The translations under genes and the position numbers were made by a program. The notes below the pieces were generated by a model. It saw only the letters and a program-made list of their open reading frames with translations, searched no databases and was not told the DNA's origin. From a virus: 38,454 nt of DNA. How positions within the stretch are numbered: position 1 is the stretch's first letter; every line of letters begins with the position of its first letter. Location: positions 1-38,454 of IMG/VR virus record IMGVR_UViG_3300046455_000123. One strand, written 5' to 3'. Positions 17,841 through 20,081 of this stretch are shown here, piece after piece.

Positions 17841-18545
17841 CTATTGAGCTTCCGACGGCGTCTTCGTCAGATCGAAAGGACACGGCTTGGGGAACCACTG
17901 CGGCAGTTGCTCGAACGTGTCGCGCATCTTCATGATCCCGCCGAACACCTCAAGGTCACCGAGGCCGCCGACGACGAACACGAGCGCACTGTCGGCGTCC
18001 TTCGTGAAGAAGCGAATGCTGCCAAAGTGCTGGCCGATTGCCAGGGCGTCTTTCAGGTATGCCGGGTTGATGGCGCCGGAGATCCCTTCCGAGTAGCCGA
18101 TCGCCGAAGCAACGTTCTCGATGCGCGGGAAGTCCGCTTCAATCAGCGAGTTACCGGGCTGCACGAACTGGGGCATGCCGTGCTCGTCGTTGATGAACGC
18201 CGCGCCGTTCGACATCAGGTCGAAGGTGCTCTTCGCGTTGCACGACTTCAGGCTGTCTTTCTTGACGGTGACGATTACTTCCTTCTGGGCATAGCCGTTC
18301 TGGTCATGGATCACGACGTAGCGGTGACCGTCAGTCGCGACGACCATCACGGTGTCGTCTTCGAGCGGGCGAATGTTGATGCCGCACAGGTAGTAGCGGA
18401 TGTCGTCGTGCGCCATGAACGGCGCGGCGATTTTGATGGCCATCGCATTGACGCGCGCGATCATGTGCGGTGCGTCAGCCGTCTGCGGTTCTGCAGTCGG
18501 CACGCCGTCGATTGAAAGCTGTTCTTGTTCGGTCGTTGCGTTCAT
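17841..18545 (-). CDS. Beta-sliding-clamp-like protein, two-domain form
   Basis: This 234-aa protein carries DIRYYLCGI at 48-56 and VVATDGHR at 68-75, matching the DVRYYLNG ... TVATDGHR signature of domain II of bacterial DnaN. About 69 residues later LIEADFPRIENV (134-145) corresponds to the GRFPDYRRV segment near the domain II/III boundary. The spacing is almost as in DnaN. Domain I (about 125 residues in E. coli beta) is missing, so the protein covers domains II and III only, like trimeric clamps in size. It could tether a host polymerase or other DNA enzyme to phage DNA. No polymerase is encoded here. The fold is well supported; ring formation is inference. Confidence 0.7.
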   Translation of the reverse strand: MNATTEQEQLSIDGVPTAEPQTADAPHMIARVNAMAIKIAAPFMAHDDIRYYLCGINIRPLEDDTVMVVATDGHRYVVIHDQNGYAQKEVIVTVKKDSLKSCNAKSTFDLMSNGAAFINDEHGMPQFVQPGNSLIEADFPRIENVASAIGYSEGISGAINPAYLKDALAIGQHFGSIRFFTKDADSALVFVVGGLGDLEVFGGIMKMRDTFEQLPQWFPKPCPFDLTKTPSEAQ

Positions 18546-19074: not shown

Positions 19075-19358
19075 TATTTCTTTCCCCAAGCCCGCTGATA
19101 CAGTTCGTCTTTCTGCGCCTTCAGTTCGGCAGCTTCCTTGATCGCTACCTTCAGACCCGAGGCGATCATCTCGGCGTATTCGAATGCCTTGATAGCGCGG
19201 TCTAGTTCTTCCTCTTGGAGCCCGTGGCGCAGAGAATCACAAGCCTCCTGCGTGCGAGACTGGATGACGGACATGAGCGTCTTGTACTCGCCGTTCACAG
19301 TGGCGTATTGACCGCGCGCCAGGATCAGAGCGGCATCGACTTTCGATAGGTCCATCAT
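19074..19358 (-). CDS. Hypothetical helical protein
   Basis: A 94-aa (93 from the second ATG at 19355) mostly helical protein with many charged residues (EEELDRAIKAFEYAEMIAS, then KVAIKEAAELKAQKDEL), probably a coiled-coil dimer. The start overlaps the stop of the annealing-protein gene. It lies just downstream of that gene and may act with it. I do not recognise the family. Confidence 0.6.
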   Translation of the reverse strand: MMDLSKVDAALILARGQYATVNGEYKTLMSVIQSRTQEACDSLRHGLQEEELDRAIKAFEYAEMIASGLKVAIKEAAELKAQKDELYQRAWGKK

Positions 19359-19993
19359 GCTGGCACCGCCTGTTGAAGCGACTTCTTGCGCTTGGAGTAC
19401 TCCGCAAGCAGCTCGGCGCGTTGCTGCTCAGTCACCTTGCTCTTGCCGATCCCGTCGCCAACCTTCGTCAGCGCCGCAATGTCATCGGCCTCGCGTATCG
19501 CCAGCTTGAAGTCGGCCATCTCGTTTTCGCTGATGCTTTCCGGGGTGTCGTCATCGTCCTTGTGCAGATCGCCCTTGTGCCACAGGTCAAGAGCCGCACC
19601 AAAGCGCATGGCAGCGTTCCGCAAGGCGTCGCCAATGCGTTCCTTCATGGCGTCCGGCCCGGTCTTGCCTTGGGCGTCACCGTAGCCAAGGCGCGTCACT
19701 CCGCAGACCGTGAGGCGAATCCACATGCCGCCTTGCTGGTCGAGCAGGGGGAGGCCGTCCGAACCGAATGCGACCGGCTCCCACGACCATTGCTCATCGC
19801 AGTTCAGCAGGCGATCCGTGAGGGCCGCGTGGCCGACATACGACAGATGGACAGCGGGCAGACCGTGGTAGCCGCCACACTCGTTGCACTTCCCCTTCGG
19901 GGAGTCCTTCTTGTACGGCTTAGGCAAAAGGCTGATCTGATGCTCCGGGAAGGGCTCTCGAAGCAGTTGCAGCCCGGTCTTTTTGTTTTCCAT
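19355..19993 (-). CDS. Rad52-like single-strand annealing protein
   Basis: The 212-aa protein starts at the ATG with GGAG/GAGAG upstream; a longer in-frame start at 20023 is less well placed. After a small CNEC motif (Cys36, Cys39), the core reads VGHAALTDRLLN (53-64), W-x-W (69-71), WIRLTVCGVTRLGYG (91-105) and GDALRNAAMRFGAALDLWHK (121-140). This strand-strand-helix order with a final KxA-type helix resembles Rad52/Sak recombinases used by phages for annealing and recombination-dependent replication. The C-terminal third is acidic then basic, as in other annealing proteins that bind SSB. Family identity is probable, not proven. Confidence 0.65.
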   Translation of the reverse strand: MENKKTGLQLLREPFPEHQISLLPKPYKKDSPKGKCNECGGYHGLPAVHLSYVGHAALTDRLLNCDEQWSWEPVAFGSDGLPLLDQQGGMWIRLTVCGVTRLGYGDAQGKTGPDAMKERIGDALRNAAMRFGAALDLWHKGDLHKDDDDTPESISENEMADFKLAIREADDIAALTKVGDGIGKSKVTEQQRAELLAEYSKRKKSLQQAVPA

Positions 19994-20081
19994 CTCTCGC
20001 TCCAAAGGTTTCTTGCCATTCAAGGAACTCTTCTAGTTCCTCTTCCCATGCTTGCCACATGGCGTTGTCGTCGTCTTCCAC
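19920..20081 (-). CDS. Small acidic protein (53 aa), overlaps annealing gene
   Basis: A GTG at 20081 lies four bases after AGGAGG, the strongest ribosome site in this part. It opens EDDDNAMWQAWEEELEEFLE, then WQETFG and a basic end. The last 74 bases overlap the annealing-protein gene in another frame. The strong acid bias of the non-overlapping part and the ribosome site support translation; the C-terminal part may be incidental. Function is unknown. Confidence 0.5.
   Translation of the reverse strand: MEDDDNAMWQAWEEELEEFLEWQETFGARDGKQKDRAATASRALPGASDQPFA

Follow-up and report, generated by a model that had tools for sequence, protein, structure and literature searches.

A phage protein comprising one and a half DnaN clamp domains lacks the ring-interface segments and retains the positions of the partner-binding pocket

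A clamp-like gene in a temperate-phage record

The window, i.e. the whole stretch of DNA analysed here, comprises 38,454 nucleotides (positions 1 to 38,454 of IMG/VR virus record IMGVR_UViG_3300046455_000123) and represents a temperate phage, with genes for an integrase, a repressor, an O-like initiator and NinB. The replication module, with its O-like initiator, is lambda-like and probably host-dependent. In agreement with the first-pass annotation, which had described a phage devoid of its own polymerase, no DNA polymerase was detected among the roughly 20 window proteins scanned, and no clamp loader was found among them either. An open reading frame of 234 amino acids, read from 18545 to 17841 on the minus strand, encodes the protein under study (denoted P0001). 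Its parts and the relevant neighbour are as follows.

17841..18545, minus strand: gene of P0001, a 234-residue protein with a putative clamp pocket; ATG start, stop codon 17841-17843
18465..18545, minus strand: N-terminal tail, residues 1-27, with QLSIDG motif; low confidence in the model
18285..18464, minus strand: first half of domain II, residues 28-87 (PF02767 match 43-95, hhalign, pocket mapping); loop AHDDIRYYL and ATDGHR correspond to pocket positions R152-L155 and T172-L177
18105..18284, minus strand: second half of domain II, residues 88-147 (hhalign, 44-148 on DnaN 146-250); ends in FPRIENV, corresponding to pocket positions P242-V247
18075..18104, minus strand: ten-residue bridge, residues 148-157, replacing DnaN 251-317
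17919..18074, minus strand: second half of domain III, residues 158-209 (hhalign, 158-208 on DnaN 318-365; strands and helix in the model); INPAYL and GGIMKMR correspond to pocket positions N320, Y323 and M362-R365
17844..17918, minus strand: C-terminal tail, residues 210-234, with LPQWFP (motif conservation)
19355..20023, minus strand: single-strand annealing protein, upstream and in the same direction (PHROG 3290, E 7.8e-55)

Homologues of P0001 with 51-85% identity occur in viral contigs and Burkholderiales prophages, the start being common to all, and dN/dS against the three nearest relatives is 0.09-0.11, with dS near saturation. As shown by the shared start and the low dN/dS, P0001 is a real gene under purifying selection. 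The family, with the same architecture throughout, is present in hundreds of phages from several host genera; 43 GenBank phage records match P0001, and 283 match the homologue from Klebsiella phage 6991. A scan of viral contigs with the Xanthomonas phage Rb1 protein returned no relatives. Among 198 scanned relatives of one Paraburkholderia host, the prophage copy of that very host gave the sole strong match; the weak matches listed are taken to be host DnaN, since they lie in open frames of about 370 residues or more.

The nearby recombination gene pointed out in the first-pass annotation is the annealing protein at 19355..20023. At residue 29 it contains QISLL, which fits the pentameric clamp-binding consensus, and a 281-residue protein contains QIGLL. 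By a rough estimate for window and neighbour proteins that together comprise some 2,900 residues, neither is clearly above chance, and consequently no partner with a clamp-binding motif (CBM) is claimed. Open reading frames beside 31 relatives, called mechanically, included seven RecE/YqaJ-type nucleases, three Erf proteins and at least one RecT annealing protein, as well as Sak4, SSB and 3'-5' exonucleases. These recombination neighbours are of several unrelated kinds. The neighbours of P0001 in the window itself are not conserved beside the 31 relatives, which share a broad recombination theme only, and a conserved operon around the clamp piece was thus rejected. In the annotation of Xanthomonas phage Rb1, an annealing protein, an exonuclease and an RdgC-like protein precede the homologue and a ssDNA-binding protein follows it; in EP23, Bcep43 and Proteus phage PM-CJR the gene sits amid structural genes of the opposite strand. 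The element common to these loci is the clamp piece, not its partners. In one genome, a Paucimonas lemoignei prophage, the clamp piece is fused C-terminally to FtsK-gamma (PF09397, E 3e-26); the fusion was recorded at L016 6001-6909 and at L049 8001-8909, probably one genome seen twice. FtsK-gamma is, in FtsK itself, a DNA-binding winged helix.

Some further arrangements were observed among the relatives. At L020 3837-6690 an Avd-like gene and a reverse transcriptase gene precede the clamp-piece gene, which begins right where the reverse transcriptase gene stops, an order resembling that of a diversity-generating retroelement. Among the neighbours of relatives are two with matches to the Tad3 family of Thoeris inhibitors (PF25185) and two with matches to Mu Gam-like end protection.

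DnaN homology and domain architecture

Assignment of P0001 to the DnaN family is based on several comparisons. The Pfam model of the central domain II, PF02767, scores 27.6 bits at a cut-off of 27, and PDB beta clamps match up to E 2e-4 in phmmer. TIGR00663 (NCBIfam) matches with E 1.3e-7 at positions 136-196 of 367 only, its 30.9 bits lying far below the curated cut-off of 137.65 for a full-length match. DnaN accounts for all notable Pfam, NCBIfam and PDB sequence signals, each of them in domain II. RYYLCGI (residues 50-56), VVATDGHR (68-75) and the FP boundary (139-140) are found at DnaN positions, as the first-pass annotation had proposed, and the homology extends well beyond the ATDGHR match. 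The resemblance is not a product of chance.

The extent of the homology was delineated by profile-profile comparison of 38 family members with seven DnaN sequences, namely those of E. coli and of five hosts with related prophages, and one full-length viral-contig clamp. Residues 44-148 of P0001 align with DnaN 146-250 (E 1e-18) and residues 158-208 with DnaN 318-365 (E 2e-4, or 9e-6 when the C-terminal slice is compared by itself). DnaN 251-317, the first half of domain III that carries interface residues, has no counterpart in the profile alignment, where about ten residues span the gap. Domain I has no matching residues either, just the 27-residue tail preceding domain II, so the absence of this domain noted earlier stands, in the alignment as in the model below. 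The claim of almost DnaN-like spacing is accurate up to the FP boundary; beyond it, a complete domain III is lacking and only its second half, DnaN 318-365, follows. A second set of ten homologues (153-214 residues, mainly from GenBank phages) gave a single alignment path with the same gap (E 8.5e-24) and aligned through to the last residue of DnaN. The Pfam model of domain III matched the homologue from Klebsiella phage 6991 weakly (E 0.003), through model positions 67-121 of 121 only. The distance from P242 to Y323 is 21-25 residues in 48 phage proteins (two of which occur in both homologue sets), as compared to 81-84 in the seven DnaN sequences. Given this uniform spacing, the family has a fixed architecture, in which domain II is followed by the latter half of domain III only.

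Full-length clamps are encountered in viral sequences as well: a viral contig (L056 3575-4744) encodes a three-domain clamp of about 390 residues, and complete and cut-down clamps both occur in viral sequence sets.

Structure prediction with AlphaFold2 provided a model of P0001 (pLDDT 84, pTM 0.75) with three beta-alpha-beta-beta-beta units, a predicted clamp fold as anticipated from the sequence. In VIA-align, residues 25-208 superpose on beta-clamp residues 122-366 with Z of about 15-16, several rows giving about 3 A across about 173 residues; the placement of the last half-domain is provisional, as it comes from a single AlphaFold2 run that gave no estimate of inter-domain error. Foldseek superpositions were looser (5-8 A). 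The viral prediction library BFVD contains many proteins of similar shape and about 180-215 residues. The model of a divergent 185-residue member (L083) reached a pLDDT of 59 and was discarded. The earlier comparison with two-domain trimeric clamps (T4 gp45, PCNA) does not hold. Due to the deletion of DnaN 251-317, model and alignment comprise three half-domain units rather than the four of two complete clamp domains, and a two-domain clamp of the PCNA/gp45 kind is ruled out.

Ring interface, partner pocket and terminal tails

In the E. coli clamp, the ring is held together by I78, F106, I272 and L273 and by charged pairs of K74-R105 with E298-E304 (PMC11139829). These published interface residues, on both sides of the ring, all fall within the segments missing from P0001. 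The order of units around the ring, read from published contacts, would be Ib-Ia-IIb-IIa-IIIb-IIIa. Given this order, the retained IIb-IIa-IIIb would form an uninterrupted arc that contains the pocket and whose ends could not pair in a native-like manner.

The CBM pocket behaves differently from the interface. A list of 18 positions was fixed from PMC11139829 before counting, with R152, L155, T172, G174, H175, R176, L177, P242, R246, V247, V360 and M362 as its first part and N320, Y323, V344, P363, M364 and R365 as its second. All 18 lie within the segments that P0001 retains. Comparison with E. coli shows identity at 13 of the 18 pocket positions versus 28 of 146 other aligned positions (19%; p 1e-5), and the corresponding values for Shigella phage EP23 are 16/18 and 31/126 (p 2e-7). 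R152, L155, G174, H175, P242 and M362 occur unchanged in 98-100% of the compared phage proteins, P0001 included. When only DnaN-invariant columns are considered, the contrast is weaker: the pocket retains 12/16 and the remainder 8/21 (p 0.03). The pocket belongs to the most conserved residues of DnaN, and the excess in part reflects this general conservation; pocket residues are preferentially conserved in the P0001 family. Five positions differ in P0001 (L177->Y, R246->N, V344->D, V360->G, P363->K), for which reason its pocket may have an altered specificity or use.

Both termini carry conserved motifs embedded in variable flanks. The N-terminal Q-x-x-[LI]-[DEGA]-[GED] motif (QLSIDG in P0001) is present in 29 of 30 close relatives, the C-terminal L[PS]xWF[PL] motif in all 30. 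In the model, pLDDT falls below 50 at residues 1-11 and 14-16 and is near 70 in part of the C-terminal tail; EP23-type homologues end at MPMR(L) and do not have the C-terminal motif. The published CBM consensus is QFx[L/M][F/L], in which F stands for an aliphatic residue (PMC11139829). QLSIDG is conserved but departs from it at positions 5/6, and is a lead rather than an accepted clamp-binding motif.

Candidate functions and relation to known systems

The names under which this family is filed point in different directions. GenBank records list its members as beta clamp, as pol III beta fragment (a note on Bcep43 gp15) and as RusA-like resolvase. The last of these follows PHROG 3007, named 'RusA-like Holliday junction resolvase', which matches P0001 with E 1.6e-18 (residues 28-177 on positions 1-149 of 190) and whose name has now reached many phage records; EP23 (NC_016566.1, 5926-6438) and Bcep43 gp15 are examples of the proteins concerned. 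A search for RusA Pfam matches was negative for P0001 (E up to 1) and for ten relatives (E up to 10), and beta clamps are the only significant family and fold matches. With no RusA homology, a resolvase identity is the least credible of the readings considered and can be ruled out. A clamp-gene remnant that decays without function would account for the truncated architecture, but is very improbable considering a dN/dS of about 0.1 against the nearest relatives and an identical architecture shared by hundreds of phages that span several host genera; selection and conservation rule out a pseudogene. Searches of the open-access literature yielded annotation-level mentions of phage-encoded or truncated clamps only, and no account of half-domain loss or pocket retention was found in it. 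The family is already known at annotation level; for the half-domain deletion and pocket retention, apparently undescribed, we found no paper. The labels 'sliding clamp' and 'RusA-like resolvase' are to be treated cautiously.

Three further readings were considered. DnaN homology, combined with the dependence of the phage on host replication, could suit a dominant-negative role in which the protein inserts into the host DnaN ring and disrupts it, akin to the poisoning of the host clamp suggested in the first-pass annotation. Because the residues holding the DnaN dimer are missing on both sides (PMC11139829), poisoning by subunit exchange is unlikely, and we consider such a role improbable. In a true miniature sliding clamp, several chains would close a ring and raise polymerase processivity on phage DNA, be it as a trimer or as a tetramer, whose 4 x 3 = 12 half-domain units would equal the count in known rings. 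The predicted clamp fold, a largely kept DNA-facing loop (D150, Y153, Y154) and the naming of relatives as clamps by GenBank annotators (PMC9825357) are in line with this proposal. It is at odds with the loss of both published interface halves, with an arc that would have two 'b' ends when native contacts join 'a' to 'b', and with the lack of a clamp loader among the window proteins scanned. A ring of this kind is unlikely, although P0001 may form a non-native oligomer or ring. Marginally less unlikely is a self-associating scaffold, in which the pocket binds the conserved tail of another chain, or the tail of the same chain blocks the pocket in a regulatory role. The conservation of both tails (29/30 and 30/30) between variable flanks and the partial confidence of the C-terminal one would fit, but QxS[LI][DE]G and LPxWFP both deviate from the CBM consensus (PMC11139829), and EP23-type relatives do without the C-terminal tail.

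The reading we favour, with reasonable confidence, is that P0001 is a detached CBM-binding module that forms no ring and serves as an adaptor or decoy for host clamp partners. Its arc of three beta-alpha-beta-beta-beta units would keep the DnaN cleft for the CBMs of polymerases and repair proteins; with both ring-closing faces gone, a ring would not form, and the retained pocket would bind CBM peptides and capture the host clamp partners Pol III, Pol IV, ligase, MutS/L, Hda and RecB. Recruitment of host polymerases or tethering of recombination proteins, as suggested in the first-pass annotation, is plausible via this pocket. In recombination cassettes, the module would most likely act as an adaptor: it would deliver a host enzyme with a CBM to the recombination intermediates of the phage and would stay on the DNA by some means other than encircling it. 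This adaptor role is favoured by the recombination context and by the FtsK-gamma fusion, which would provide a DNA tether. Nearly as likely would be a decoy that strips partners off the host clamp, and solitary placement among structural genes points to a decoy that acts in trans. One possible client is RecB, as RecBCD was reported in 2026 to bind the clamp pocket via QVEMEF (PMC13254535).

Polymerases, ligase, mismatch repair, initiation control and, according to PMC13254535, RecBCD all use the clamp pocket to dock. Extended to the family, our tentative proposal, for which we see the chances as close to balanced, is that many phages carry a free-standing host-clamp pocket that would capture host replication and repair enzymes through their CBMs and either silence them (e.g., RecB, Hda, translesion polymerases) or redirect them to phage recombination intermediates, with other modules, FtsK-gamma for instance, keeping the redirecting pocket on DNA. 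If true, this would define a class of phage takeover factor whose action on the clamp's clients stems from its mimicry of the clamp, demonstrate that the pocket works without a ring, and supply a small soluble stand-in for studies of clamp partners. It would also offer a testable function for a family found in hundreds of sequenced phages.

The closest known proteins are the short phage 'DNA polymerase III beta subunit' or 'beta-clamp' proteins of EP23, Bcep43 (gp15), Serratia phage Eta and Klebsiella phage 6991, and PHROG 3007. They have in common with P0001 the one-and-a-half-domain architecture, the missing DnaN segment and the pocket residues, but comprise 153-214 residues and mostly end in MPMR(L), whereas P0001 carries additional conserved tails at both termini and reads M-K-M-R where they have M-P-M-R. 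DnaN of E. coli and Burkholderiales agrees with P0001 in domain II, in the latter half of domain III and in the majority of CBM-pocket residues; P0001 differs in lacking domain I and 251-317 and hence both known ring-interface faces. PCNA and T4 gp45 are similar insofar as the chain length of P0001 is near that of a two-domain subunit; in contrast to their four half-domain units P0001 has three, and no trimeric clamp was among the top structural rows for the model. The clamp inhibitor Gp168 of phage Twort binds the DNA channel of the clamp and blocks loading (PMC11139829). Should the decoy reading be right, P0001 would likewise be a phage protein acting on host clamp function; unlike Gp168, it resembles the clamp itself and would act on the partners of the clamp.
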